Shown: piece after piece, positions 8,301-54,247 of the stretch
Numbering within the stretch: position 1 is the stretch's first letter
Layout: each line of letters opens with the position of its first letter
Assembly (NCBI GenBank): GCA_032622095.1
Contig: CP136067.1
Span: forward strand, 135,163,990 to 135,227,989
DNA from: Siphonodentalium dalli
Lineage: Eukaryota; Mollusca; Scaphopoda; Gadilida; Siphonodentaliidae
Direction of reading: 5' to 3'
Length of the DNA: 64,000 bases
Translations under genes and position numbers: made by a program
Notes under the pieces: generated by a model
What the model was told of the DNA's origin: nothing
Database searches by the model: none
The model's input: only the letters and a program-made list of their open reading frames with translations

Positions 8301-11300
8301 ATAATCAATAATTTGAAAAATGATCAAGGAAATATGGGTTGATACAAAAATCGGACTTGGCACTGAAAGGGTTAAATAATATTTTTGTCAAAATGTAAAT
8401 ATGGAATGTGCAAAATAATTTTTTTCTATATACACGACCCTACACAAAATCTCTAACAATATATATGAATGAAAACTTCATTATTTTATATGTTACCTGA
8501 CATCAAATGCCTAGCCATTTGTGGTCAGTGGTACCAGACAATTGATTGTCTGTTTCATCATCTCATTGAAATAAAAAGTATATTATTGTGCACCACCATT
8601 GTAAAGAAAACAATGAAATTTCAATTGGCCCAAAGTAGCTTTAATTAAAAGTTTGAGAGTTTTCCGAAATTTGTGATTTGTATCACCACAATGCTGGGAA
8701 CTCCATATTCAAGTTAAACACCAACATAGCAATGACACTCATGCTAGGAATGCCGTATCCAAGGTAAACACCAACCAGGAAGTTGTGCAAGATAAGATAG
8801 GGAATTCCCTGTATAATAATAGTACAGGTTATTTATGGGGAATCCCTCTGTGACTGAGTAAATTCTTAAATAACTGCGCAATCTTTCTCCTGCATTCAAT
8901 TGTATCTAGGGTTTAATCCCGGGACCGGGAATTCCCGGGTTCCCGGTTCCGGCAGTCGGTCCCGATTCCCGGGAAATTCAATTAGCAGAACCGGGAATCA
9001 AAGTCCCTATAAAATTAGCGTAATACCGTCTAATACGTTCGATATTAGAACCAATATATTATTTCTTTTCATAGAACATAACGTGAATATTAATGTCTGC
9101 CCTCACGGAAGCAGGGTCAACAATTTAAAGAGTCATGACTCATGATTGGCATCGACGCATTCTGGCATGATGCTGCACATGCACAGTCGCGTCACTCACG
9201 AGTCACTCACTTGTGATCCATGTGTCCCAGTCGCAGACTCGTTAGGTCACGGGACTCACAGAGTCACGGCCTCACAGGATGAACATGGTTGTGTAATGCC
9301 ACAAATTCCACAATGTGTATACGTGACAATTGACAAACGTGAGGCACATTGAGCAATTTGATTGTCTATAAAGTATAAATAAGAATGACGCAATTCACGT
9401 GCGGATTGCAGACAGTGCAGTATAAAACTATAAATAAGAATGACGCAATTCACGTGCAAAGGCTCAAAGGTTGGGAGCCTGTGAAGTGCATGACGTCAGA
9501 TTTCTCAGAATCATTTATTGTGTACTGCTCAATGCTCACCTGCAAATCTGCAATGGCTGCAAATCAGCTGTGATTATATAACAGACTAAGTTTACCACCG
9601 AATTTGACCGAATGGCTAACAGGCAAAATCTATCGCCGGTATGGGAGTACTTTGAGAAAGTGCAGCCAGACAAAGCACGGTGCAAAAAGTGCATGAAGCT
9701 CCTGAGTGTTACCGGAGGCTCCACAGGGGGGCTGTTAAAGCATTTGCGATCGGTCCATGACATTTCAGTAAAACGGCCCACTGGACCAGAAGTGAAGACT
9801 GAAACATTGTCGCCTCAGAAAGTTCCCAGACAATTGTCAGTGGGTAACTTTTTTGTGAAAAAAGTGGACAGTCTTGGCAAGATTTTGGCGAAGCTATCTG
9901 CGGTTGACGGCTTCTCTATTCATGAGTAGCGAATACATCCGTGCATCGCTCAGCCGAGATGGGCACAATTTGCCCAGAAATCCAACAGACGCCATGCTTC
10001 TCATCCAGGGATTTGCAAAAGAAGTAAGGGAACAGATGGCCGTTGAATTTAAACAAAGAATTGCGGCAGGTGAAAGGTTTTCGTTAACACTTGACGAATG
10101 GACGAGCGTTAGAAACAGGCGATATATGAATGTAAATCTTCATGGATTCGGTGGGAAAGTATGGAACACGGGATTAAAGCGCGTGTTGGGGAAATTTACA
10201 TCAGAAGCAATGGTTGCGTCGGTCAGGGAACATCTGGCTGAGTTCAACATTGATATAGATTCTGACTGTGCTATTAGTACCAATGACGGTGCCTCTGTGA
10301 TGATAAAATTTGGTCGTCTAATGCCAACAATTCCCGTCGTTTGTTACAGTCATGGCATTCACCCCGCTGTGAGTGATATTCTGTACAAAGGCGAAACTAG
10401 CGATCAGAATGAGGATAACGAAACTGACGAGAATGTCGAAGTAGAAACTGTAGTGTCAGCCGAGGATCATGTCATAGATTCTGAGGACGACGATGAATAC
10501 CAGGAAGGAGCCGATATAACTGCCGAAGATGAAGACCCACCAGAATTGATAGACAGCTACAATGATTTGGTAAAGAATGTTTGGACGGACTGCAAGAAGT
10601 TTAGGCGCAGTCGGCTGACGAGATCTTGCAAACATACGTCAAAGCGGAACATGGCGAAGAGTTGAAGCCGATTTTGGACATTAAGACACGTTGGAATAGC
10701 ATAGAACAGATGTTTGCGGTTTTATAAAGCTCCGTTCGTGTATGGCCAAGGCATTCGTGGATATAAAATGCAGTTCTACCATCACAGATTCCGAGTTTAA
10801 ACGAGTTCACATGATTCAGGATACATTGCGACCAATAACTATTGCTAATGAAGCCCTCGGTCTTCGGGACATTACCTTTATTTCTGCTGATAGCATATTG
10901 GAATTTTTATTCAAACAGCTTGAGAATTTGAACACTGAAATCAGCACCCAAATGCTCATTCGCTTGAAAGATAGGCTGGCTAAACGCAGAGACAAGAACT
11001 TAGTATCGTTGTTACGCTATTTACACGACCCAGTCGACCCTTTGCGTGAGACCGGCAGCAGTACTTTCTTCGAACTTTCATCAAAAGCTGCACGTACTCG
11101 CCTGGTGAAATCGGAACTTGGTAGGATGAAACCCGCTGTTGACTTAGATGGAAATAATGATACAGAGAAGCAAACTTCGGACGGAAACCCCGTGGTTGCG
11201 AGCGTTGAAGAACCTGTGGTCACGACTGTTCACACCCTTGAACAGGAATGCCAGGCATATATTGATAAATCGGTGGCTACTCATAGTCATTCCGACAAGG

Positions 11301-14300
11301 ACGCGGAACCGAAAATAAACGCGGAGTTTAAACTATTCGAAGCAAACAAGGAAAGAACGCCCAATCTGAATTTCTTATTCGAGGCATTAATGAGTGGAAC
11401 ACCCACATCGGTTGAAGCTGAATGTTCCTTTTCGTAGGCTGGCCAGTTTGCGACAAAAATTCGCTCATGTCTTAGTGATCGATCGTTGTGCGATCTCCTT
11501 TTTCTAAGGAAGTACTTCGGCAGCAAAAACAGTTAACTGACTCAATGTGATTATGTGATTAATATCGCGTATTCAACTATTAAAAGTATTCATCAATTTA
11601 GTTATCTATTCTGTAACAGGAACTTGTTGTTACACATTTTAGTTGAGTGTTTACTGTTTAGTTGTTTACGCCGCAAAATTACGCGGTCGGAGACTCGGAA
11701 CTTCGGAAGTTAGGAACTTTGGAAGATGGTATGGTTTTATTTGTTTATTTTGATGAAAATAAGTCTGACATAAGAATATAAAGAATATGTTATGTGCCCT
11801 ACGTGAGTTTCTGTGTCACGAAATATTCAATTGTCAGTCATTCCTGTTGGTCTGTAAATTATACCCGGGAAAATTCCCGGTTCCCGGTTCTGATGACGTT
11901 TTCAGTCCCGGTCCCGGTTCCACAAAATCCGGGAATATATTAAACCCTAATTGTATCCAAGGTAAACACCAACAGCAACGGCGCTCATAATGGGAATGAC
12001 GTATCCAAGGTAAACACCAGCATAGCAACGGCACTCATGCTAGGAATTCCATATCCAAGATAACACACCAGCCCACATGGGGGAGAATGTATTTCAACAA
12101 GTAAAGTAGGTGCTTATTTTTAGTTGTCATTATGCGTGATATAGAAGAAATATTTACAAAATAGTTAATAATAAAATATAAACAGTATATAAATATATAA
12201 ATAAATATATACAAGTACAAATAACAATACACATAGTTAGCTGGCCTACAGCCAGTACTGGGCACGGCTGTCTGGTGTCAACATATTCTGTATTTGTTTT
12301 CTACGCCGATAGACTTCTGAAAAGGAAAGGCCCAGTGTCCCGAAACGGGTATATTTACCCAGTAATTTTCCGCATTGTTCTGGCATAAGATTCTTGAATA
12401 CCAACGTTTTCTTGAAGCCATTCTTTCCATGTAACTGTTATCTTGCCAACCAGTTTTTCAGTGCTGTGTAATTCAAATGCCATAATAAGCCATTCTCCGT
12501 AATCAAGGGAGGCATAGAGAGATACTGAATATGTTTTTTTTTGAGTAATCCATAGCCTGATTTTAAGATTATTCAATGTTGTCAAGGCTTGTAATTTCCA
12601 CATCAGATTGGCCCATTCTAACCATTGTCATTTCACAACAGGCAAACAGATGGAAGAAGAAGGGTTTATCAGTTGTTCCACTGAAGCGTGGCATAGATTG
12701 GGCGTCCTTTGAATACAATGTTTATGCCACCATCTATAATGGCGATGGATCAGTTGTGATTACACACGGCGGGATCGAGAGTGGACAAGGACTCAATACA
12801 AAGGTAGAGCAAATATATTTATCCACCGCTAGCTACCTTTAGTGCCTTTATAACACCTGCCTAATAAAGTTACGTTTATTACTTCAAGGTTAGGTAGCTT
12901 TATTAGGTCAACGTAGCTCTATTAGGTTAGTACTACTTTTATGATGTAAATTTATATGCAAATTGCACAAGTAACTAGGTATGTCAATCGGCCTATATGA
13001 CGTCATTGTGATTTTAAAATATTTTTATCGTCCATCAACTACTGTTATTGATACAAAATTAATAAACGGATATATATTTTAGCTCTAAAACATCAATAAA
13101 TCATCAGAACAAGGTCGGCTTAGAATAACTGTATAAAAAAGCCAAGACACTATTTCGCTCTGATCTACACTTTAGTTTGCCCATTTCATGAATACTAATT
13201 AGTTTGCTTGACCTCATAAATGTAAGGGCGTCATCGAAGTAACGAATGAAAAACTTAGGAAAATGACAGAATTCTCCCACAAAAGGCAAGCTTTGCACAA
13301 TGGATAAATAAAATATGTAGCTAATGCTATTGCTTAAATAGTTTATGTCAGCATCTATTGGACTTGATGGTTTTAACCCTTTGAGTGCCAGGTCGATTTT
13401 TGTATCAACCCATATACCCTGTGCCAATGCATTCTCTTATATATGCGAGTCGACCATAGGTCACCTCGCATATATAAGAGAATGCATTGGCCTAACAATA
13501 TATATATATATTTTTTTTTTTTTGATACAATTTTAATAATTTACTCTTATATCCTTTAACAGACTTATTTTGTAGGTTTAGGGCCGATGAGATCGGCCCC
13601 TAGCACTCAAAGGGTTAAGCGACATCACTAACTACATATTATATATATATTAGTATAGCTGGTAATATCATATCCAGCTTATTATTATTTCGCTGCCTCA
13701 ATCGATCCATTTCCACTAAACATTCAATTTTTATAAATGTTGGTGTTAATTCAGTATATTCCTTTTAAAGACATAATATGGATAATAAAAAAAATACCGG
13801 GCGTTCAATGCTAGTTTGTCAGATTTTACCGAGAGTTCAATTCTGTTGGAGCACCACGATTTGAAATCGGGCTTGTATATCGAGAAAACTCAGGAAACAG
13901 GGGCCAAACGTTAAGCGTGGTTTTCAATGGGATATTGAGGCATCCAAAACATGTCTTTGTTATTAAATACTACATCGTATAGTTTAGTGCTGGGACGGTT
14001 GTCCGGATAACCGGTTACGGTTTGGTTACACGTGTCAACCGGTTGGAGGAGGCCACAACCGGATAACCGTAATATTGATAACGATCGTACTATCATCGTG
14101 GTACTCCGTGTAAATGTTTCCGAAATCATTTACGGAAGTTTAAGTAATGAGAGTAAGCTGCTTAGAAGCGATTTGGACAGTTGATTGTGTATTCATATAC
14201 CCCACAACACATGCCTGTTTGATCACCGGCGGCTTTTCTAGACATGAAAACAACAACTACACTCTTATCTGTGTCAGTCTGTGAATCACTTGCTACACAT

Positions 14301-22917: not shown

Positions 22918-22961
<44 letters not shown>

Positions 22962-25900
22962 TGCCCTTGGATGCTTCCGGCGCCCCTGCCGAACAAGTCC
23001 GTAATATATCTTTAAGTTATGCATTAATTTTCCTTCCTCAATCAGGGTGCTATCGAGTGCTGTAAGAAACTAAATGAAGCCATCCAGCCGGTGAGAACTA
23101 AGTATCCTGACTTACAGTGGAAGGAACTCATACAGAAATGCTACTCCGAGAAAGTCGATCTCACTGCTCGCTACATGTGAGTTACAAGCCTGCAAATAGT
23201 GGGTCTGTCATTTGCAGAATGAGGTCCCCAGAGGGTGAATTTGGTGATGCTATCCCGCACAGTGGGCTAGCATCTCCAAATTCACCTTCTGGTGACCTCA
23301 TTCTGCTTAGGCCTCATCTTCTAGGAAGTATCTATAGTCTCAAATTAACATTGTTTTTAGTTACTTTTTCCCTTCTGGGAAGTTTCTATATCCTCTAATT
23401 TGCAGAAGATCGAACGCATAATCGGGTGACTAACAAGTGAACACCACCAACTTCAACTGGGGAAGTTTAATCTGATCCTAGGTCTCCCATAGCAGTTGAG
23501 GCCTAAGCAGAATGATGTCCCCAGAGGGTGAATTTAGTGAGGCTAGCCCACTGTACATATTTTCTGATGCACATGATGTCGAACTCGTGTTATATTATTG
23601 ATCAAATAATAGGGACACATTCCAGCATTACCCAGCCTGATTATAGTGTGTCTGTCATTTTCAGAATGAGGTCCCCAGACGGTGAATTTAGTGATGCTAT
23701 CCCGCATAGCATCACTAAATTCACCCTCTGGGGACCTCATTTTGCTTAGGCCTCATCTTCTCTGGAAACTTTCTTTGTTATAAAATTTCTATAGAAACTT
23801 TTTTAGTTGTGACCTCATTCTGCAAATGACAGGCACACTATAATCACGCTTGAGTATAACAGTTATTTCATGACCTCCACTGAGATTGTACTCATAATAT
23901 ACAGTAATGTCCTAAATAATCGACTCCTCAACCACAGCAGAATTATGGGTAATTTTTCAGGATTTAGTCGGAAATATTGCTTATTGCCATTCATCGGAAA
24001 GCTCTCAGTGAGAGCTTTCCGATGAATGGCAACAAGCCATATTTCCGACTAAATCCTGAAAAGTTACCCATAATTCTGCTGTGGTTAAGGAGTCGATTAT
24101 TTAGGGCATTACTGTATTATTACTTTTGCAGGCTACGGCCAGAGGATAGATATATATTCCAGTATAACACATATGGTGTGACAGCCACGGAGGTTGAACT
24201 GGACGTGTTAACAGGAGAACATCAGATTACAAGAGTCGACATTCTCTATGATTGTGGCGAGAGGTAAGGTTTAAAGATCTGGAGGATGTTGATGGTGGGT
24301 AAAACCACCATAAACGGAAAGAATACTAAAATAAAGACAGGCTTTGTTCTTAAACGAATCGTAAAAATATCTCGTAAATAGCATGTTATTGTCAACTCAT
24401 ACATTGTGTAAACAAAGAAGACAGTCTGTTACAGAAGCTTTGTATATAAACTAACATTCGGAACCAGCCAAAGTCCAAAGAAGATTTTCCTCTTTTACTC
24501 TATTGTCTATAGAGTGCACTGTGGAAGGTGGAGATCAAAGTCATGGTGGCATGCACAGCAGTCTCATTCAAATCACACCAAGTCTCCTTTTAATCGACCC
24601 ATACTGCCCGCTGTGACTTCAAAATCCAGCTACTGTACGTTACTTCATAGTTGGAGAATGATCAGACAGAAAACGTGTACCTAACTTCATTTTTAGTCCC
24701 CTCCTCACTGAAACTAACCCCAACCACTGGGGAGAAACAAGAACAACTTTTAGCGGATTATTCTCTTCTTTTATATATTTTAGCTTGAATGCTGAGATAG
24801 ACGTTGGACAGGTAGAGGGTGCGTTTGTAATGGGACTTGGTTATTATTTGCTAGAGAAGACTGTCTATGATAAAGAGTCTGGTGAACTGTTATCAAATCG
24901 GACATGGGTATGTTATATAAAGTGTGAACTGTTATCAAATCAGACATGGGTATGTTATATAAATTGGACATGGGTATGTTATATAAAGTGTGAACTGTTA
25001 TCAAATCAGACATGGGTATGTTATTTAAAGTGTGATTATCAAATCGGACATGGGTATGTCATATAAATTGGAAATGGGTATGTTATATAAATCTGACATG
25101 GGAATGTTATATAAATCTGACATGGGTATGTTATATAAAGTGTGAACTGTTATCAAATCAGGCATGGGTATGTTATATAAAGTGTGAAATGTTATCAAAT
25201 CAGACATGGGTATGTTATATAAATTGGACATGGGTATGTTATATAAAGTGTGAACTGTTATCAAATCAGACATGGGTATGTTATTTAAAGTGTGATTATC
25301 AAATCGGACATGGGTATGTTATATAAATCAGACATGGGTATGTCATATAAATTGGAAATGGGTATGTTATATAAATCTGACATGGGAATGTTATATAAAT
25401 CTGACATGGGTATGTTATATAAATTGGGTATGTTATATAAATTAGACATGGGTATGTTATATAAATCAGGTTTGTTATATAAATCATACATCGGTATGTT
25501 ACATAAAGTAGAATATAATCCCCCATCATAAAATAAAAAATAGTTAATATACCTTTCTATGATAAATGTACTCTCCCACTCAGTTTGAACGATCTATTTT
25601 TCATTTGGAGGGACGTTCAGGTAATAAAAACGGACAAAAAACAAATAATACAAGAGCAGAATGATTCCTATTTATAGGTCGGAAATGTTCAGATAATAAG
25701 TTCAACAAACGACCTAAAGTCTTTTGTAGACTTATTGTCTAAACATTTCCAAAGGGAACTACTCATCAATGAGTATTTAGTATAGAAAGGGAATCAAGAC
25801 CTTTGAACTTCAAAGGCCTTTATTCCTTTTCCATACTTTTCTATATACAATGTATTGCAATACAATACTTTAGACATGTAATTGCCCTATCCCAGCTTTG

Positions 25901-28900
25901 AGGTACAGTAATGTCCAAAATAAACAACCCCTAACCACAGCAGAATTATAGGAAATTTTTCATGATTTAGACGGAAATATGACTTGCTACCATTCGTCCA
26001 AAAGCTTTCAGTGAATGGCAACAAGCCATATTTTCCGACTAAATCCTGAATTTTTTTACATAATTCTGCTGTGGTTAAAGGGTCATATACTTCTGACATT
26101 ACTGTAGGTTCATCTGAACTAACATAAATTTTATAAAAGATTGTAAAAACAACTACCATCAACAAGTCAATGTAAACTTGGATCGCCTTTTCTTTTGTTC
26201 TTTCTTAATAACTAACCAATAACGAGATTTCACAAGTCAAAACCATTGTTATGTATACATTATGGTTGCTGTGGCAGTACCGATCAAAGCCCAAAGTCCA
26301 TTTAGTCCAGTAATATACCAAGGTTTACTTGACAGTAAACATTGGAAAAGGTCAAAGCATTGAAAATTATTCTGAAAATCATATTCAGACTGAAACAGTT
26401 TAAATTACTACATGATTGATGATGTTTGTTGACAAATCACTGTCACAGTTTTGTTTGTATAAAAATAATTTCAACATGTGAATTTTTGCTATTGGAGAAC
26501 TATCAATAATGAATAGTTTATTTCTTTCTCCATGATCTTAGGCCATTAAATTAGATTCAGTAATGCCCTAAATAATTTAATATCATGAATATATAGTGAC
26601 ATAGAACATTATTAGCTGATCATTATAGTCTGGTGTACTAATTATAACTCCAGAACAATTGAAAGGCATTGGAGGAAATTTAGGATCACATGCTGTATAA
26701 TAATGGAGAGGTGTCAATTTATAGACAACAATAACAATTGTGAATAGTCAGGGGCATTAGAACATTATAGGTAATCCCTATGCATATACTAGTAACACAT
26801 TGTAATTTTTATATCAGATTAATTAAATGAGTATATGCAGAACAAAGTTTCCTCTACATTTTCTGACTATTACTAGACAATTGAAGCTATCATAATTCAT
26901 GCTTACAATGTGCACCAAAATTAAAAAATAAAATTAAAGTCCTCCCTCCCTCGTTGATTCAGAAAAAAAAAGGTCTGAGCTGGTCTGAGACTCAAATAAT
27001 TATTTTTTTGGCCTAAAGTTTCCATGTCTTAATGAGAATTATATCCACACAATTTGTTATAAATCTGTGGGTTATATATAAATTAAGGATAAATGTGATG
27101 GACAACAGTCCTGATTCAGTATATTGCTCATGTTTAGTGTCTCTGGTGAATATGGGACTAAAATAAATAGTTTATGTGGAAATACCTGACTCCTCAAAAT
27201 AATAATTTGAAATAAATAATATATATGCCTCCCTCATCACTTTGAAAAACATATTCTCTGAGAAACTAACTTTATTTTGTTTATCGAGTCAAAATTATAG
27301 AAATTTATTGGCAATTTGCAGCTATTGCAGAGAAATCAAAACCTGTTTTGCTGTTTTGATAAAATCCATCACTTCAATAATTACAGTAATGCCCTGAATA
27401 ATCAACTCCTTAACCACAGCATAATTATGGGTAACTTTTCAGGATTTAGTCGGAAATATGGCTTGTTGCCATTCATCGGAAAGCTCTCAGTGAGAGCTTT
27501 CCGATGAATGACAACAAGCCATATTTCCGACTAAATCCTGACAAGTTACCCATAAATCTGCTGTGGTTAAGGATTTGATTATTTAGGGCATTACTGTAAT
27601 CATGTCATATATATATCATCTTGAACTTTCTTGTCATTACCACTTTCAATACATGAGTTAAGTTAATGCATATTTATGCTTATTTATAAAAAGTTTATAA
27701 ATTTATTTTGTAGAATTATCATCCACCGTCGAGTAAAGATATCCCAATAGACTTCCGAATCCACCTGTTGAAGGATGCTCCAAATCCTGTGGGAATTCTT
27801 AGGTCAAAAGGTAGGAATCACAATTCTCAGGCAATAATACCTGTATAATAATAGTCATGTCAACGTGTTAAACATACACATTATGTTGGATACCTAGTAT
27901 ATTATATATATTAATTTATAAATTTTATATAATTACAAAGTGTAGTATCTAATTTATAGTCAAAATTGAATATATATTTGAAACAAGGTGATATTGTTGA
28001 AACCTTGATGTCTATTTTGATAGTTTCTGAACTCTGCTGAGCAAGTGAGTATAGATCGTAGCAATAACTGAAAACTAGCTATTTAACATGCTCTGGGCCT
28101 TTGAGATTACATTTAAAAACAAATGCCATCTTAGTAAATTACCTCAGTAAAACCATTTCTGAGTTATGAGTGATGAATTGTGATTAAAAACTGGTAATAA
28201 TTTAAGCTAATTTGTTTAATTACACGTCCCAAAGCTGTGGGGTTCCCTATTTATTACTCATCATTCTTTACAATAAAATCAAATATATTAAAGGATTATA
28301 ATGGTGTAGTTTTCTCAGTCATTATCAATGACCGCTTATCCACTGAGCACTTTGCCATAAAGATTTTTGTGATAGGCTCCCCAAAGTAATGCCATTCTTG
28401 ATCGTTAATGTTCCCTCTTGTGACGTCACAAGAGGGACTAGGTATTGGATTTTATCTACCGATGGTAATCAATAACTGATTGTTTATACAGAAACGGCTG
28501 ACCATCGGAACTGAAAAAAATTGTATATATGGGTAATTTGACCCATGGAATCTTAATCAACTTTGATTGGTTCTGTTGATACCAGATGTCTTAAAAGGCC
28601 ACTAATAATTTATTTAGTTAACTATTTAATTATATATCCAAAATTATTGCAATCTGCAGGTCAGTGAAAATTGAAACACGGGGATAAATTGACAAATAGA
28701 GTGTAATTAAATAAATGCCGTTGACCGCAGATGACTTAAAGCAGAAAATATGAGCAATAAAGAGCATTCATTGTGTAGGAAAATTGGTACAGATGGGTCG
28801 CCAGACTAACACATCTATCCTAATTCAATTTGCGAGCTGTATAAACACGGCATGACATACATGTAACCTCTGGCTAATACTCTCCCTGTCATACAATTGT

Positions 28901-31900: not shown

Positions 31901-34900
31901 TTACTAACATCGCCGAAAATTTGAAGCGAATCGACCATACAACTCCATAGAAAACACCGTCTGAACTACGCTCAATTGTAAATATTTACATCTCGATTCG
32001 GGACGCATCTATCGGCGATAAACTAACGAAAACGATTTCGCCATCGAGAGTGACTACATTTAATAAATATATAAGACTGACGTTGTGTGTTGTAAATTTG
32101 GATTAATATTTATAAAAATAACTACTTTGAGGAAGATTATTCTCCATTGCTATATGATCACCCAACTGGAGTGTTTCACATCACTTTAATGTAGGATTAA
32201 TGGCCCATGATGGATATATTCAAGATATATCTCTCACGGGTCATCTTCCCACAATAAATTCTTTATGTGATTGTAAAGCAAAGGGCGACGCCTATTAATC
32301 ATACTCACGTTGAATCGTGTTACATAAGGCCAAAAAAAAAAAGTGTTTTGGTTCTCGGGCAATTTTTTTTTCAAATCAATGAGGGAGGGAGGGTTTTATT
32401 TTTATTTTTTATTTTTTTTCTGCACATAGTAAGCATGGACAAAGATACCTTCCTCTGTCTAGTAATAACCAGAAAGGTAGAGGGAACTGTTACGCATATA
32501 AACTCATTTAGTCTTGTATAAAAATGACATTGTACTACCAGTGTATGACTGAGATTACCTAACAATGTCAATATATAATGCCCCTGACATTAACTACTGT
32601 TATTGTTGTCTAAAAACTGATACCTCCCCATTCTAATATGTGATCCTGAATTTAGTCCTGTGCCTTTCAATTGTATAAAGTTACAATTAGTGTAAGTTGT
32701 TCACAATGACTAATTGTAAGAAGAGCATGAGGATCAGCTAATAATTTTCTTAATTGTAGTCATCTACTTCATGTTGTAAGCCTGCAAGTCACTTTTTAAC
32801 ATATTACATGTTAGAGCTCAATGCACACTAATATTCAACACATATCTGCTATGGACATGTTGATAAAATCCAAACAAAATAAAAAAAGTTTTTTTTTTTT
32901 TTTTCAAATTTATTTTTTCGTAAGTTTTTTTGTCATAACATCAGGCATTGCAATAAAAAGGCCTAATGCGGCCCTTTTTATTCAATGCGGCGGGGCCTGA
33001 GAACCAAAACCTTATTTTGTTTTGGCCTAAGTAAGAATTTTTTTTTTGTCAGCTAGAGTTGATTTCAGAAAGTTCCTTGACTTCTTTCCAGCTGTTGGTG
33101 AGCCACCCCTTAATATGAGTTGCTCCGCCCTGTTTGCTCTGAAACACGCTGTTGAATCAGCTCGGGAGGAGATTGGCAAAAATTCTCATTTCCAGCTAGG
33201 TAAGGCCATATAAATAAAAGTTATGTTTTCTCATGCACCTCCTTCGTCACTCAGGCACCTCCGTCGTCACTCAGGCACCTCCATCATCACTCAGGCACCT
33301 CCGTCGTCACTCAGGTGCCTCCCTCATCACTCAGGCACCTCCGTCGTCACTCAGGCACCTCCGTCGTCACTCAGGCACCTCCGTCGTCACTCAGGCACCT
33401 CCATCATCACTCAGGCACCTCCGTCGTCACTCAGGCACCTCCATCATCAATCAGACACCTCCGTCATCACTCAGGCACCTCCTTCATCACTCAGGCACCT
33501 CCGTCATCACTCAGGCACCTCCATCATCACTCAGGCACCTCCGTCATCACTCAGGTGCCTCCGTCGTCACTCAGACTTGTCACTCAGGCACCTCCATCGT
33601 CACTCAGGCACCTCCGTCATCACTCAGGCACCTCCATCATCACTCAGGCACCTCCGTCATCACTCAGGCACCTCCATCATCACTCAGACACCTCCGTCAT
33701 CACTCAGGCACCTCCGTCATCACTCAGGCACCTCCATCATCACTCAGACACCTCCATCATCACTCAGGCACCTCCATCGTCACTCAGGCACCTCCGTCAT
33801 CACTCAGGCACCTCCATCATCACTCAGGCACCTCCGTCATCACTCAGACACCTCCATCATCACTCAGGCACCTCCATCGTCACTCAGGCACCTCCGTCAT
33901 CACTCAGGCACCTCCATCATCACTTAGGCACCTCCTTCATCACTCAGGCACCTCCGTCATCACTCAGGCACCTCCATCATCACTCAGGCACCTCCGTCAT
34001 CACTCAGGCACCTCCGTCATCACTCAGGTGCCTCCGTCATCACTCAGACTTGTCACTCAGGCACCTCCGTCGTCACTCAGGCACCTCTGTCGTCACTCAG
34101 GCACCTATGTTGTCACTCAGGCACCTCTGTCGTCACTCAGGCACCTCTGTCATCACTCAGGCACCTCCGTTATCACTCAGGCACCTCCGTCGTCACTGAA
34201 ATTTTCTTTTAAAAAGCCTCGTCAAACATTTTTTTCATAATTTTCTGTTAGAAATATTGGATTTGAATGACAAAGATAATTTATTTGGGTTACTGGAGTA
34301 TGTTTTCCAGATTTTGAGAAAGAAATACAAATTGAGATCTAATTGAATTGCCTGAGAACACACATATTTTATTTTAACCCTTTCGTGACGGGAGCTGCGC
34401 TGGTGTAGCATTAAAGATCCTGTGTCAGTGCATTCTCTTATATATTCGAGTCTCCCATAGGGAGCCTCACATATATAAGAGAATGCATTGGCTTACAACA
34501 TCAAGGTAAATATTGTTAGGCCAATGCATTCTCTTATATATGGGAGGCTCCCTATGGGAGACTCGCATATATAAGAGAATGCATTGGAACAGGGTTTTTG
34601 CAAAATTTCAGGAAGCTCCAGTCATGGAAGGGTTAATTGCCTAAGTGGTCATAAAATGGATGCAGAAAGATACAGATTAACACGATCAGTTTGTAGTGAC
34701 GAATTTCCCTGATGTCAGCATTAAATTCATTAATTTGTTTAATGCCATATTAGAAAGACTGGGTTCTTAGGCATATTGCCAATATTTTGCCCAAATATTT
34801 TCAGGAGAAATCTGGGGAATGTTATTGTTTTTTATCCTTATGGCATGCTGGAAATAAAATATTCTGTAGGTCGAAATCATATCTCAGAACTGAAAATGTA

Positions 34901-35653
34901 AGAGTGGAAAATCAATAATATATATGACGACTATCCAAGCAGTGTAGAGGGACACCTTAAACATTCCAATCACTCATCTAATTATATATATATATTAATG
35001 TGCTGATTTTAGGTGAATTTTCCATGCTATTATCTTTCTTTATTGGACACTAAATCATGATTAAACTTCAAAATTCTGACTGACACATGATTATATACCC
35101 ATTTATCACATATCTTTTCTGTCGACTTCTTTAACTTTTCTCTTCTATCACAGCTCCCTCCTTCTCATCCCTGCACTATTTTCCCAACATCTATGAGACA
35201 ACACAGAACTAAAGCTAAATTACTGGCTTCCTTACCCTATAACTGTCTACATTGACACTTATAACATCACCGGAGGAAAGGATCTTATTTAATAAAAGCC
35301 AAATATAGTGGTATCCCTTCCTCATTTGAACAGTTTGTTTGTCTATGTATAAATTGTCAATGTGATGTTCTGTTTTGTTCAAATAAAATATATACAGTTT
35401 AAATCAGATCAGATCTGAACAATGACACAATCTGTGCTTTACTGTAATGCAAATTAAAGACTGATGGTGATTTCCAATTTTGAAAGTAAACAAGTCTGGT
35501 TTATACTGATTTTATCAAAAATGGCCAATTCGGTGTCCAGTTACATCTTGAGCTGTTATTTTGAATTGTTTTTCAGATGCGCCAGCAACAGTCGATGTAC
35601 TGCAGTCTAAATGTTTGTTGGATAGGGCACAGTTCACTTACGGACCTAGCTGA
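5212..35653 (+). CDS. Xanthine dehydrogenase / aldehyde oxidase family protein, C-terminal part (10 exons)
   Basis: Molybdenum hydroxylase that oxidises purines or aldehydes at a pterin-bound molybdenum centre; family members are normally cytosolic homodimers. Exons 5212-5321, 6534-6647, 12642-12803, 19048-19176, 23046-23176, 24132-24263, 24784-24907, 27714-27810, 33092-33199 and 35577-35653 join in frame to 1184 nt, about 393 residues, against about 1330 for the whole family protein. In order one sees [30 protein letters not shown] (cofactor loop), [17 protein letters not shown], and KAVGEPPL, whose Glu is the family's catalytic base. The C-terminus [13 protein letters not shown] also fits the family. 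Upstream domains (2Fe-2S, FAD) lie outside the window. All introns are GT-AG except the second (GC-AG). No frameshift or stop breaks the joined frame. The residues that separate xanthine dehydrogenase from aldehyde oxidase are upstream, so I leave the substrate open. Confidence 0.9.
5770..5905. mobile_element. Family I palindromic MITE, degraded
   Basis: The arms AGAATGAGG...GGTGAATTT and AAATTCACCCTCTGGGGACC face each other. The right end carries AAATGACAGACACACTATTT, as in the better copy at 21045-21314. The left terminus is lost. Confidence 0.6.
6163..6461. mobile_element. TTAA-flanked MITE with CCTCTTTGCTGC termini
   Basis: TTAA lies at 6159-6162 and 6462-6465. The termini CCTCTTTGCTGC and GCAGCGAAGAGG are inverted, and subterminal ATGACGTC / GACGTCAT extends the symmetry. 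It is 299 bp and non-coding. The ends differ from the CCCTTTC families elsewhere in the window, so this is a separate TTAA family. Confidence 0.7.
6534..6647 (+). CDS. XDH/AOX exon B
   Basis: Acceptor TTGAAG ahead of GTGACGCC. It encodes [20 protein letters not shown] to EIQEYNK. The only donor that keeps the family alignment is AAG|GCAAGT, a GC donor whose other positions fit the 5' splice consensus exactly. The exon is 114 nt and in phase 0 at both ends. Confidence 0.82.
6677..6894. mobile_element. Family H palindromic MITE (CAGTAATGCCC ends, TA target)
   Basis: The element begins CAGTAATGCTCTAA and ends TTAGAGCATTACTG, flanked by TA on both sides. The two arms share GGATTTAGTCGGAAATATGG and its complement around a short centre, so it folds almost end to end. 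A TA duplication suggests a Tc1/mariner-type non-autonomous element. It lies 29 bases after exon B. Confidence 0.75.
7075..7545. repeat. Imperfect inverted repeat / foldback
   Basis: The left arm (GGATCATGCCTAGAATTTCT, then TTCCACCAG, CTTTTTGAAG, ACCTAATAAAG, TCCTTAATAATGTACTTCA) is mirrored on the right by TGAAGTACATTATTAAGGA, CTTCAAAAACTT, CTGGTGGAA and GGCATGATC. It is probably a diverged foldback MITE. No target duplication was identified. Confidence 0.5.
7700..7990. mobile_element. Family I MITE fragment
   Basis: Arms AGAATGAGGTCCCCAGAAGG and CTATGGGGACATCATTCTG face each other around 7718-7802. They are followed by tail sequence (CTCATCTTCTCTG) also seen at 23310 and 23752. An ORF over it is a shadow of the repeat. 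Confidence 0.5.
8147..8371. mobile_element. TTAA-flanked near-perfect palindrome (CCCTTTCAGTGCC ends)
   Basis: TTAA lies at 8143-8146 and 8372-8375. The left arm runs from CCCTTTCAGTGCCAAGTCCG through TGATCATTTTTCAAAT to a centre of repeated GAGCTCTTTCCATC. The right arm is its complement almost base for base. It is 225 bp and non-coding. Confidence 0.8.
8372..8700 (+). other. No gene seen
   Basis: AT-rich intron sequence without repeats or coding features that I recognise. Confidence 0.5.
8907..11949 (+). mobile_element. hAT transposon, full length, decayed
   Basis: A 3043-bp element begins TAGGGTTTAAT and ends in the inverse ATTAAACCCTA. It is flanked by the 8-bp duplication ATTGTATC (8899-8906 and 11950-11957). 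Subterminal GC-rich blocks of CCCGGG / GGTTCCCGG repeats sit at both ends (about 8918-9000 and 11865-11930), as expected for transposase binding. An 8-bp duplication and this type of end identify the hAT superfamily, and the interior carries the matching transposase remnant. It is inserted in the intron after exon B. Confidence 0.92.
9612..11536 (+). pseudogene. hAT transposase (BED finger), broken
   Basis: The order of parts is intact. A BED-type zinc finger comes first (WEYFEKV...CKKCMKL...LLKHLRSVH). The catalytic core follows, with [20 protein letters not shown] and [10 protein letters not shown], then an acidic insert. [13 protein letters not shown] and a C-terminal hAT dimerisation region complete it (SVEAECSFS, then [16 protein letters not shown]). 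Reading frame is lost near 9920 and near 10605-10620, a stop and frame change occur near 10720-10745, and a TAG at 11435-11437 precedes the last 32 codons, which stay open to 11536. The copy is therefore inactive. Length and layout match ZBED-like hAT transposases. Each break would be confirmed by aligning to a full-length relative. Confidence 0.88.
12086..12641 (+). other. No gene seen before exon C
   Basis: Intron sequence with an AT-rich stretch of short TATAAA-like repeats at 12170-12235. No coding evidence. Confidence 0.5.
12642..12803 (+). CDS. XDH/AOX exon C
   Basis: Acceptor CACAACAG, donor AAG|GTAGAG, phase 0 at both ends. It encodes [17 protein letters not shown], an [15 protein letters not shown] strand, and [14 protein letters not shown]. 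In the family, the Gln of GQG contacts the molybdenum cofactor. Confidence 0.9.
12804..13376 (+). other. First part of the intron after exon C
   Basis: Low-complexity, partly self-complementary sequence near 12850-12935 (AATAAAGTTACGTTTATT and repeated CTTTATTAGGT). No coding feature otherwise. Confidence 0.5.
13377..13614. mobile_element. TTAA-flanked MITE (CCCTTTGAGTGCC ends) carrying the hairpin module
   Basis: TTAA lies at 13373-13376 and 13615-13618. Termini CCCTTTGAGTGCC and inverse AGCACTCAAAGGG, with CCGAT-type subterminal symmetry. Inside, at 13410-13493, is the hairpin GCCAATGCATTCTCTTATAT...ATATAAGAGAATGCATTGGC, also found in elements with other termini. Confidence 0.75.
13985..15215. 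mobile_element. Non-autonomous hAT element, 1.2 kb
   Basis: The 8-bp duplication GTATAGTT (13977-13984 and 15216-15223) flanks ends TAGTGCTGGGACGGTTG and, inverted, TAGCTGTGCTGGGACGGTTG (three bases differ in length). Subterminal GGTTAACCGG-like motifs occur at both ends (CCGGATAACCGGTTACGG; TTAACCTGTTATGG). I see no recognisable transposase. A short reading frame around 14281-14631 includes a basic stretch ([17 protein letters not shown]) that I cannot assign. Confidence 0.82.
15224..15735 (+). other. No gene seen
   Basis: Intron sequence without features I can support. Confidence 0.5.
15740..15870. mobile_element. TTAA MITE, left part only
   Basis: TTAA at 15736-15739 is followed by CCCTATTGTGATGGGAGCTG and one hairpin module (about 15783-15852). 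The right terminus found in the copies at 444-695 and 34378-34632 is missing. Confidence 0.55.
16468..16628. repeat. Foldback palindrome, about 65-bp arms
   Basis: GGAGTAATCAATTAGTTCCG, AGAATAACGTT, AATAATTCA and GAGAGACG on the left are mirrored on the right by CGTCTCTC, TGAATTAT, AACGTAATTCT and CGGAACCAATTGATTACTC. Probably a MITE; no clear target duplication. Confidence 0.6.
16875..17502 (+). mobile_element. Non-autonomous Helitron with 122-bp tandem units
   Basis: It begins TCTCATATATATTTTG after a host A. It ends with the stem-loop GCCCGGACAACGTCGGGC (17474-17491), seven bases and CTAG (17499-17502), followed by T. A 122-bp unit starting CTTGCCCCGGATACGAATTT recurs at 17110, 17232 and 17354, plus a partial unit before it. 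Overlapping ORFs on both strands are repeat shadows. Confidence 0.85.
17700..18010. repeat. Foldback followed by AT-rich low complexity
   Basis: ATTCTATACAAAATTTATTAA (about 17770) is mirrored by TTAATAAATTTTGTGTAGAAT (about 17840), with outer arms GAGATCC and GGATCTC-like. After it, 17890-18010 is almost only A and T (TATTATAAT-type). Confidence 0.5.
18011..19047 (+). other. No gene seen before exon D
   Basis: Intron sequence. A minus-strand ORF over 18096-18410 has no recognisable motif, and I do not call it. Confidence 0.5.
19048..19176 (+). CDS. XDH/AOX exon D
   Basis: Acceptor ATTTCAG, donor GCA|GTGAGT, phase 0 at both ends. It encodes [38 protein letters not shown] and LCSA. This matches the family strand-helix unit following the cofactor loop (T-x-T--x-N--S-ST-GS pattern). 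Confidence 0.9.
19308..19534. mobile_element. Family H MITE, rearranged
   Basis: The left end CAGTAATGCCCTAAATAATC is intact. The centre GGATTTAGTCGGAAATATGG is duplicated, and the right arm is shortened (CCCATAATTACTG), so part of the right end has been deleted. Confidence 0.65.
19535..20740 (+). other. No gene seen
   Basis: Intron sequence. A lone TTAACCCTTAGGATCCC near 20309 resembles a TTAA-element end, but I found no partner. Confidence 0.45.
20745..20890. repeat. Foldback palindrome
   Basis: The arms GTTATGTTG, AAGATTTTATGAAACTCG and ATAAATTTGATTC are mirrored by GAATCAAATTTAT, CGTTTCATAAAATCTT and CAACATAAC around CACAACTCGTCTAC. Confidence 0.6.
21045..21314. mobile_element. Family I MITE with 8-bp target duplication
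   Basis: Flanked by TTCTTGCG at 21037-21044 and 21315-21322. Ends CAAGCCTTGAAATAG and CTATTTCAAAGCT are inverted. Inside are several facing copies of AGAATGAGGTCCCCAGAGGG / CCCTCTGGGGACCTCATTCT. The 8-bp duplication suggests hAT-type mobilisation, though the terminal bases are not the usual ones. Confidence 0.7.
21330..21754 (+). repeat. Repeat G, copy 2
   Basis: It opens with a coding-like stretch [20 protein letters not shown] and QSSV, then TGA, as in the other copies. A conserved tail follows (GGATGAGGATGG, CGGCCATATTTCGTTGAAC, ATCTTGATGAAATGGGGACC). It lies directly before an F repeat. Confidence 0.65.
21819..22349. mobile_element. TTAA-flanked element, 531 bp, CTCTTTCACTGCC ends
   Basis: TTAA at 21815-21818 and 22350-22353, with 13-bp inverted ends CTCTTTCACTGCC. 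The interior has a diverged direct duplication of about 180 bp starting GTATTTCTCAATAAC (near 21900 and 22069). Inserted in repeat F. Confidence 0.75.
22590..22988. mobile_element. hAT-type MITE with poly-C tract
   Basis: The 8-bp duplication CCGAACAA (22582-22589, 22989-22996) flanks ends CTGGGGCGCCGGAAG and, inverted, CAGGGGCGCCGGAAG. CAGGGGCG is a classic hAT terminus. It contains a run of about 42 C at 22920-22961. Non-coding; glycine- or proline-rich ORFs over it are artefacts. Confidence 0.85.
23046..23176 (+). CDS. XDH/AOX exon E
   Basis: Acceptor TTCCTTCCTCAATCAG, donor CTACAT|GTGAGT. It encodes [31 protein letters not shown] and [11 protein letters not shown], plus two bases of a Met codon completed by exon F. 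This is the helical segment of the molybdenum domain (family pattern W-x2-L/W-V-x-A-Y). A family I MITE starts eight bases after the exon. Confidence 0.88.
23185..23552. mobile_element. Family I MITE, right-truncated, beside the exon E donor
   Basis: It starts CAAGCCTGCAAATAGTGGG eight bases into the intron, then AGAATGAGGTCCCCAGAGGG and its inverse, and a long tail shared with 37900-38100 (in inverse) and 42180-42320. The right terminus is not present. Confidence 0.65.
23628..23848. mobile_element. Family I MITE, second copy in the same intron
   Basis: Ends AGCCTGATTATAGTGTGTCT and inverse AGCGTGATTATAGTGTGCCT are well paired. The centre has the AGAATGAGGTCCCCAGACGG palindrome. Confidence 0.7.
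23902..24114. mobile_element. Family H MITE ending 17 bases before exon F
   Basis: Flanked by TA, begins CAGTAATGTCCTAAATAATC and ends GATTATTTAGGGCATTACTG. It is a near-perfect palindrome. Only TATTATTACTTTTGCAG separates it from the exon, so the branch point probably lies inside the element. Confidence 0.82.
24132..24263 (+). CDS. XDH/AOX exon F
   Basis: Acceptor ACTTTTGCAG, donor GAGAG|GTAAGG. It encodes [36 protein letters not shown] and ILYDCGE. This matches the family segment YF-YG-A--EVE-D-LTG-----R-DI--D-G-SLNP. The last codon (AG|C, Ser) is completed in exon G. Confidence 0.92.
24264..24783 (+). other. Intron after exon F
   Basis: GT-AG intron of 520 bp, one of the few here without a mobile element I can recognise. 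Confidence 0.6.
24784..24907 (+). CDS. XDH/AOX exon G
   Basis: Acceptor TATTTTAG, donor ACATGG|GTATGT. It encodes [32 protein letters not shown] and GELLSNRTW. The [13 protein letters not shown]-like block is among the most conserved in the family. The last 24 bases and the donor are duplicated many times in the following intron. The first three extra donors, at 24950, 24974 and 25016, keep the reading frame. Confidence 0.92.
24884..25515 (+). repeat. Minisatellite copying the exon G 3' end and splice donor
   Basis: Units of ACATGGGTATGTTATATAAA combined with variable linkers (GTGTGAACTGTTATCAAATC, TTGG, TCTG) recur about 20 times. The first unit is the true exon end. Frame stays open from the exon to 25066. 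ORFs on both strands further along reflect the repeat. Confidence 0.85.
25516..26538 (+). other. Intron stretch with one MITE, otherwise no gene
   Basis: A partly self-complementary section near 25670-25760 (GAAATGTTCAGATAATAAG and CTTATTGTCTAAACATTTC) and the diverged family H copy at 25906-26104 are the only features. Confidence 0.5.
25906..26104. mobile_element. Family H MITE, diverged
   Basis: TA-flanked, begins CAGTAATGTCCAAAATAAAC and ends TTCTGACATTACTG. The arms keep ACCACAGCAGAATTAT and the inverse ATAATTCTGCTGTGGT. Confidence 0.7.
26539..27016 (-). repeat. Repeat J, copy 1 (reverse)
   Basis: Read in reverse it matches 32360-32790: CCTCCCTCCCTC...ATTAAAAAATAAAA...CATGCTTACAATGTGCA here pairs with GAGGGAGGGAGG...TGCACATAGTAAGCATG there. 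The outer ends carry TAGGCC / GGCCTA. A short CAGTAATGCCCTAAATAAT fragment of family H sits near 26562. Confidence 0.65.
27384..27596. mobile_element. Family H MITE, well preserved
   Basis: TA-flanked; CAGTAATGCCCTGAATAATC to GATTATTTAGGGCATTACTG. Nearly full palindrome of 213 bp, 117 bases before exon H. Confidence 0.82.
27714..27810 (+). CDS. XDH/AOX exon H
   Basis: Acceptor ATTTTGTAG, donor AAAAG|GTAGGA. Starts on a codon boundary and ends one base into the Ala codon of AVGEPP. It encodes [20 protein letters not shown] and [12 protein letters not shown], matching the family KDIP-DFRV-LL---PN----L-SK block. Confidence 0.92.
27811..28299 (+). other. First part of the intron after exon H
   Basis: AT-rich; no recognisable element or coding feature. 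Confidence 0.5.
28300..29650. mobile_element. Foldback element with long inverted arms
   Basis: The left arm (GTGTAGTTTTCTCAG, TATCCACTGAGCAC, CCAGATGTCTTAAAAGGCCA, GGATAAATTGACA, AAATGCCGTTGA) is mirrored across about 1.3 kb by TCAACGGCATCT, TCAATTTATCCCC, GCCTTTTAAGACATCTGG, GTGCTCAGTGGATTA and CTGAGAAAAACTACAC. The arms are about 450-500 bp and diverged. A family H MITE (28926-29137) sits in the loop. I could not define a target duplication. Confidence 0.7.
28926..29137. mobile_element. Family H MITE in the foldback loop
   Basis: TA-flanked, CAGTAATGCCCTAAATAATT to GATTATTTAGGGCATTACTG, full palindrome. It is younger than the foldback it interrupts. Confidence 0.8.
29813..30748 (+). mobile_element. 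Non-autonomous Helitron with doubled 5' end
   Basis: Two 5' ends lie 29 bases apart: TCTACTATATATTTTGAGAC at 29813 and TCTATTATATATTTTGGAAG at 29842, each after A. The 3' end has the stem-loop ACCCGGACGAAGTCGGGT (30721-30738) and CTAG (30745-30748) before T. The interior repeats GACCTTCAAAATGG and TCAAGGTCAAATCGGGT. No Rep/helicase. Confidence 0.8.
30749..31437 (+). mobile_element. Helitron-like remnant
   Basis: It shares internal phrases with the preceding Helitron (CGAAAACGGCTGCACCGATC, ACCTTGACCTTGAAAATG) and ends CTGCTAG before T. The terminal stem-loop is not clear and the 5' end is buried in TATATGTGTG repeats, so this is a tentative call. Confidence 0.45.
31812..32191 (-). repeat. Repeat F, copy 2 (reverse)
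   Basis: The reverse complement matches 51781-52165 along its length: GTGATGTGAAACACTCCAGT, CGATAGATGCGTCCCGAATC, TTGTAAATATTTACA-type core, CGAACAAGTACATAATATGT. No A or B box seen and no terminal inverted repeat found. Confidence 0.75.
32321..33029 (+). mobile_element. Repeat J, copy 2, with terminal inverted repeats
   Basis: Starts AAGGCCAAAA...GTTTTGGTTCTCGGGC and ends GCCTGAGAACCAAAAC...TTTTGGCCTAA, giving inverted ends of about 35 bp with A-run differences. The inner part is inverse to 26539-27016. It stops 62 bases before exon I. Confidence 0.7.
33092..33199 (+). CDS. XDH/AOX exon I (catalytic Glu)
   Basis: Acceptor CTTCTTTCCAG, donor CTAG|GTAAGG. It encodes [31 protein letters not shown] and SHFQL. 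The Glu of GEPP corresponds to the general base that activates the molybdenum-bound water in this family. Confidence 0.93.
33223..34198 (+). repeat. 20-bp minisatellite, nearly 50 copies
   Basis: The unit GCACCTCCGTCATCACTCAG and variants (GTCGTC, ATCATC) run for almost 1 kb, starting 23 bases after exon I. The unit has no stop in any forward frame and 20 is not a multiple of 3, so all three frames are open and give the same 20-residue peptide repeat. I treat the long ORFs as artefacts. Confidence 0.92.
34378..34632. mobile_element. TTAA MITE with two hairpins, best copy
   Basis: TTAA at 34374-34377 and 34633-34636. Ends CCCTTTCGTGACGGGAGCTG and inverse GAAGCTCCAGTCATGGAAGG. Two hairpin modules face each other at about 34424-34490 and 34520-34590, separated by GTAAATATTGTTAGGC. 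Confidence 0.82.
34637..35576 (+). other. Rest of the last intron, no gene seen
   Basis: AT-rich. An AATAAA at about 35384 lies before the final exon and is not the gene's poly(A) signal. Confidence 0.5.
35577..35653 (+). CDS. XDH/AOX exon J, C-terminus and stop
   Basis: Acceptor TTGTTTTTCAG. It completes Asp and encodes [24 protein letters not shown], then TGA at 35651-35653. The D-PAT-----C pattern is the usual end of the family protein. Confidence 0.9.

Positions 35654-54020: not shown

Positions 54021-54247
<227 letters not shown>

Follow-up and report, generated by a model that had tools for sequence, protein, structure and literature searches.

The splice donor of one exon (exon G) of a predicted aldehyde oxidase/xanthine dehydrogenase-like gene of Siphonodentalium dalli has been multiplied in tandem, as the earlier note had proposed, with 18 copies of GTATGT among 21 donor-like sites, and donor-spanning duplications have recurred in paralogs that share the exon G intron. 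It is this recurrence that is new. The array is real and probably a by-product of a repeat-rich genome. We consider it likely that a 42-bp duplication spanning the donor was followed by tolerated growth of a minisatellite, with the first donor still ending the exon for the most part.

The window, by which we mean the whole 64,000-nt stretch analysed, lies on contig C7 of a genome of 2.23 Gb in nine contigs. Exons of the gene, which is encoded on the + strand, were taken from the sequence and from paralog matches. Exons G and H, when joined, matched AOX1 (Aldehyde oxidase 1, 7px0) in the structure database (phmmer, E 6.5e-24); this was the top hit among 27 distinct sequences at E <=0.001, and the closest solved relatives are enzymes of the family. 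The peptide joined from exon F to the last coding exon contains the molybdopterin-binding domain MoCoBD_2 (PF20256, E 2.2e-32, residues 8-96), whose match spans exons F and G and the beginning of exon H, and the joined reading frame is open from exon G to the last coding exon. A genome search, which gives lower bounds, found at least five paralogs. We refer to the window gene as gene A, to those at C5:29.63M and C5:29.73M as genes B and C, and to those at C8:47.75M, 47.82M and 47.95M as genes D, E and F. The features of the window gene are as follows.

24132..24263, + strand: exon F, which precedes exon G; donor GAGAG/GTAAGG, without a junction copy in the window gene.
24784..24907, + strand: exon G (SLNAEID...GELLSNRTW), ending in phase 0; phmmer match to 7px0, intron position common to five paralogs.
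24882..25509, + strand: tandem array in which a first, partly exonic unit is followed by 20 more (42, 24, 38 or 18 nt); TRF and unit split.
24908..24913, + strand: putative canonical donor of exon G, TGG/GTATGT; gapless junction in three relatives, U1 pairing of -6.5 kcal/mol.
24950..24955, + strand: candidate extra donor, +42 nt, in frame; sequence, U1 pairing and frame reading.
24974..24979, + strand: candidate extra donor, +66 nt, in frame; same evidence.
25016..25021, + strand: candidate extra donor, +108 nt, in frame; same evidence.
25054..25499, + strand: 17 further donor-like sites, the first shifting the frame and the other 16 lying behind an in-frame stop.
27714..27810, + strand: exon H (...RSK), acceptor TTTGTAG; sequence, phmmer and paralogs.
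33092..33199, + strand: exon I, carrying AVGEPPL; sequence and paralog matches.
35577..35653, + strand: last coding exon (...FTYGPS stop); paralog match in genes D, E and F, and sequence.

The glutamate of AVGEPPL in exon I is presumably the catalytic one held for the aldehyde oxidase/xanthine dehydrogenase family. The array had been described as close to the exon of this residue; it does lie upstream in the same gene, but exon H intervenes before the exon with the GEPP motif.

The unit split gave a founding unit of 42 nt made of 26 exon bases and 16 intron bases, in agreement with the claim that the first unit consists of the exon G end plus the donor. The sequence and coordinates given earlier hold, with the correction that the array takes in just the last 26 nt of exon G. 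About 20 units had been estimated and 20 were counted after the exon, of which eleven measure 24 nt, five 42 nt, two 38 nt and two 18 nt. Each 42-nt unit runs from the 16 intron-start bases into the 26 exon-end bases, while the 24-nt units correspond to a 42-nt unit minus 18 bases and the 38-nt units to one minus 4 bases. TRF also detected a higher-order duplication of 260 nt within the array (94% matches), the two blocks of which differ at 15 of 260 positions. All 17 occurrences of the 9-mer TGGGTATGT on the window's + strand fall within the array, and the - strand has a single one. Across the genome itself, three TGGGTATGT words spaced 9-40 nt apart gave 2336 matches (1164+1172) against 1058 (613+445) in a backward control, and three tandem copies of AGGTAAGT gave 1165+760 against 627+682, with matches to these word patterns overlapping within arrays; minisatellites with TGGGTATGT are therefore common and ordinary in this genome. 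The array has 22 other genome matches at 70-75% identity, one on C7 (189.6M) and 21 at C3:28.7M. The latter were considered as related arrays and rejected, as they sit in a 25-nt minisatellite in which inspection of two loci indicated no relationship.

A second minisatellite is present in the window at 33230-34197, with a 20-nt unit in 49 copies, and each of the three + frames has long stretches free of stops. It begins about 30 nt past the exon I donor and, unlike the exon G array, contains neither exon nor donor.

Apart from the 18 GTATGT sites, which fall between 24908 and 25494 (24908, 24950, 24974, 25016, and from 25054 onward), the donor-like sites of the array comprise two GAATGT and one GTTTGT, and GT is kept in 19 of the 21, having been lost at 25102 and 25386. 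All but one of the 18 GTATGT sites carry the full TGGGTATGT, and predicted U1 pairing is identical, at -6.5 kcal/mol, for these 17. This value lies toward the weak end, tied at rank 36-37 among 46 donors of six related genes. The four donors first proposed, at 24908, 24950, 24974 and 25016, were confirmed in position, and joined reading bore out the frame arithmetic: choice of the second, third or fourth would lengthen the protein by 14, 22 or 36 residues and leave the frame open. As had also been claimed, the site at 25054 (+146) breaks the frame, and a stop is reached in exon H or I. For every site at 25078 or beyond, the exon extension itself contains an in-frame stop. Hence three of the 20 downstream sites are in frame and 17 shift the frame or follow a stop (two of the 17 without GT).

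Which donor normally closes exon G can be approached by homology. Three printed phmmer alignments to structure-database relatives show no gap at the G-H junction, and the intron after exon G occupies the same place in the five paralogs found; together these suggest that 24908 is the functional donor. A search of the same genome for a near-identical retrocopy with a joined G-H junction found none with 0 or 1 mismatch among the matches listed; matches begin at 2 mismatches and total 577 against 409 in a backward control, a search that addresses near-identical copies and leaves room for a strongly diverged one.

We propose that the array originated when 42 bp bridging the 3' terminus of exon G and the donor were duplicated in tandem, and that it then grew, with shorter units arising by internal deletions and one block of 260 bp being duplicated. 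The exon-attached first donor would still close exon G in most transcripts, and the downstream copies, judged by their sequence, would be decoys of nearly equal quality. Rare in-frame forms could come from the first three extra donors, and later sites, if used, would yield frameshifted or truncated transcripts. Intronic copies behind a working donor would do little harm and might be close to neutral, which would let the array persist, while an equivalent duplication that hit an acceptor or an exon interior would more often be removed. More generally, tandem repeats would arise throughout the genome, and those that straddle a donor could be retained because they leave the exon-attached copy where it was and functional. 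In some laboratory tests a donor closer to the acceptor prevails over an identical one upstream, and if such a preference applied here the array would be harmful.

Examination of the paralogs showed that the exon G donor is duplicated in three of the six genes of the family (A, B and D). The repeated unit measures 43 nt in gene B (2.8 copies) and 112 nt in gene D (two copies), and an alignment test found no junction-spanning copy at the exon G donor of genes C, E and F. We read the duplications in A, B and D as separate events because the intron halves of their units look unrelated, their breakpoints differ, and gene E, a sister of D, is without the 112-nt duplication. The absence of the latter from its sister gene suggests that donor duplications of the D type are separate and fairly young. 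Donors of neighboring exons are also affected. In gene B the end of exon F and its donor form a ladder of five donors at 57-nt spacing, each step in frame and open (L030; L028 1263-1543), which is more cleanly in frame than the array of the window gene. At exon F, gene C carries a single decayed copy with its donor lost (GACAG/GTA to GACAT/GTA, the GT following CAT, not CAG), and exon H of gene B has a partial copy with six exon bases only. With the offset of this exon H copy (130 nt) included, founding duplications of 42 and 57 nt keep the frame and those of 43, 97, 112 and 130 nt break it. With two of six founding units being multiples of three, the in-frame property of the window array is not beyond chance.

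Arrays of this kind are already known, as a minisatellite in human IFI6 supplies multiple donors. Turri, Cuin and Porter reportedly described this minisatellite (in 6-16, G1P3) and its multiple splice donor sites in 1995. The IFI6 units are 12 nt long, resemble the donor consensus and start near the end of an exon. The array in gene A is similar in that it starts within an exon, by its 26 exonic bases, and crosses the donor into the intron, and in that its units carry donor sequence. It differs in its units, which mostly measure 24 or 42 nt, with 26 bases of a conserved enzyme-coding exon in each 42-nt unit, and in the duplication of the same donor in three of the six genes of one family. In addition, whereas IFI6 units are reported to be used in mRNA, the window array is known from genomic sequence and most of its downstream sites break the frame or lie behind a stop. 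Among the titles and abstract openings listed by literature searches, we found no report of such an array in an aldehyde oxidase/xanthine dehydrogenase gene.

Two further classes of event can be compared. In human segmental duplications, internal tandem repeats at exon-intron boundaries alter splicing in recent paralogs (PMC2812944). As in the present case, minisatellite growth at such boundaries in recently duplicated genes alters the possible splicing; that work is transcript-based and describes the formation of novel introns, whereas here an existing donor was multiplied and the evidence is genomic. Intron gain by tandem duplication (PMC4974935, PMC2809761) likewise copies gene sequence bearing on splicing, but no new intron is formed here, and the 5' splice site copies lie inside an old intron common to six genes.

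The IFI6 example bears on the first alternative to tolerated growth, that the array is a working source of isoforms, with splicing spread over the first four in-frame donors and 0, 14, 22 or 36 extra residues placed before the NYHPP motif. Such use would fit the three nearest extra donors, which are in frame and open with U1 pairing equal to that of the first, as well as the exon F array of gene B, where five of five donors are in frame, and PMC4526556 describes two downstream IFI6 repeat units that serve as donors and give three mRNA species. We nonetheless regard it as unlikely, given that four of six founding unit lengths break the frame, that 17 of the window's 20 downstream sites would not be productive, that the three structure relatives have no gap here, and that three of five paralogs are without a junction copy at the exon G donor. 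The frequency of TGGGTATGT minisatellites genome-wide and the presence of the same intron in the five paralogs found further argue against an isoform source that was selected.

We then compared splice sites with their surroundings, counting junction-spanning copies within about 380 nt by alignment against shuffles. The counts all come from one gene family and are based on 47 exons in six genes, set by hand, with exons further upstream outside the count; one donor and six acceptors that the search strings did not locate were dropped and nine exons have no defined acceptor, leaving 46 donors and 32 acceptors. The intron background excludes a 39-nt satellite of gene F (L044-L046), which has about 248 copies and makes up most of the intron before exon E2. 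Copies were found at 6/46 donors, 0/32 acceptors and 29/400 random intron points. The excess of donors over acceptors is suggestive (one-sided p 0.036, two-sided 0.076), and under this test neither donors (p 0.16) nor acceptors (p 0.15) differ significantly from intron points. An earlier, looser measure, 30-nt identity within 1.5 kb, gave 4/46 donors at a cut-off of 23/30 and 7/46 at 20/30, with 0/32 acceptors at both, against backgrounds of 8.8% and 16.2% for 4000 intron points and 3.0% and 5.0% for 4000 exon-interior points. Exons are thus poorer in repeats than introns, yet not free of them, and the loss of acceptor-straddling and exonic repeats is weakly supported. When the looser measure was restricted to 12-330 nt downstream, 8000 intron points gave 4.2% and 6.9%, with binomial p values for the donors of 0.12 and 0.038, the latter for 7/46 donors against 6.9%. 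Exon H of gene C was counted by the looser measure and dropped out under the alignment measure.

Some of these counts hint at a hotspot at exon G and at the exon F, G and H donors, beyond plain tolerance. Exon G donors exceed other donors (3/6 against 3/40, Fisher p 0.022) in a comparison chosen post hoc, and the corresponding post hoc binomial value of 0.0064 becomes 0.058 after correction for nine exon classes. By the looser measure, F/G/H donors stand at 7/18 against 0/28 for other donors (p 0.0006, again post hoc). A bolder reading holds that, in this animal lineage, donors of the AOX molybdopterin-domain exons are a duplication hotspot making in-frame ladders, from which splicing would give enzymes with stepwise longer loops near the active site, varying between individuals. 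The ladders behind it number five donors of five in the C5:29.63M paralog and four in the window gene, the first donor included; we think this reading quite improbable.

As an outside sample, 20 of 93 cytochrome P450 profile matches were taken roughly by rank, one per cluster, before any sequence was viewed, with exons ending near profile position 408. By the 30-nt identity measure, 0/20 of these donors had a copy within about 360 nt downstream. The best identity at the donor was 14-17/30, and at one locus (L058) 20/30 was reached for a window four bases further in. Since three pairs (L050/L052, L065/L069 and L066/L067) look near-identical, there are fewer than 20 independent donors. Comparison of AOX, scored by alignment, with P450, scored by identity, gave 6/46 against 0/20 (p 0.17), and all donors pooled gave 6/66 against introns (p 0.61).

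Two further alternatives to tolerated growth fare worse. Many near-equal donors, mostly leading to premature stops, might tune output by cutting functional mRNA in proportion to array length, in keeping with the 16 of 20 downstream sites behind a stop in the lengthened exon (two without GT) and with a first donor on the weak side by U1 pairing. This would require regular use of distal donors, and a constant cost would be expected to favor loss of the array, which makes it very unlikely. That the array is in part an assembly artefact, as the 260-nt block repeated at 94% might suggest, is highly improbable given the 15 differences between blocks, the varying unit lengths and the donor arrays built of different units in other paralogs.

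How the spliceosome picks one of several equal 5' splice sites can be studied on arrays of near-identical donors, which serve as natural experiments. The present genome has several such arrays at homologous donors, along with array-free sister genes as controls, and the first-donor rule is therefore directly testable by RNA reads. If the extra donors are used, an aldehyde oxidase-like enzyme would illustrate how length variation in a protein can originate from minisatellites.

Other repeats occur around these genes. By eye, similar palindromic foldback elements are found at 23900-24120, 25900-26110 and 27390-27600, one stopping just before exon F and two within the G-H intron, and gene C has an element of like kind just past exon G (L024). 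Three long open frames at 9582-11434 are flanked on both sides by oxidase gene exons and resemble an intronic transposon; the first has a BED zinc finger (PF02892, E 8e-11), and the second and third have no Pfam match. The window also contains a run of 41 C at 22921-22961 and a CT repeat of about 113 copies at 54024-54247.
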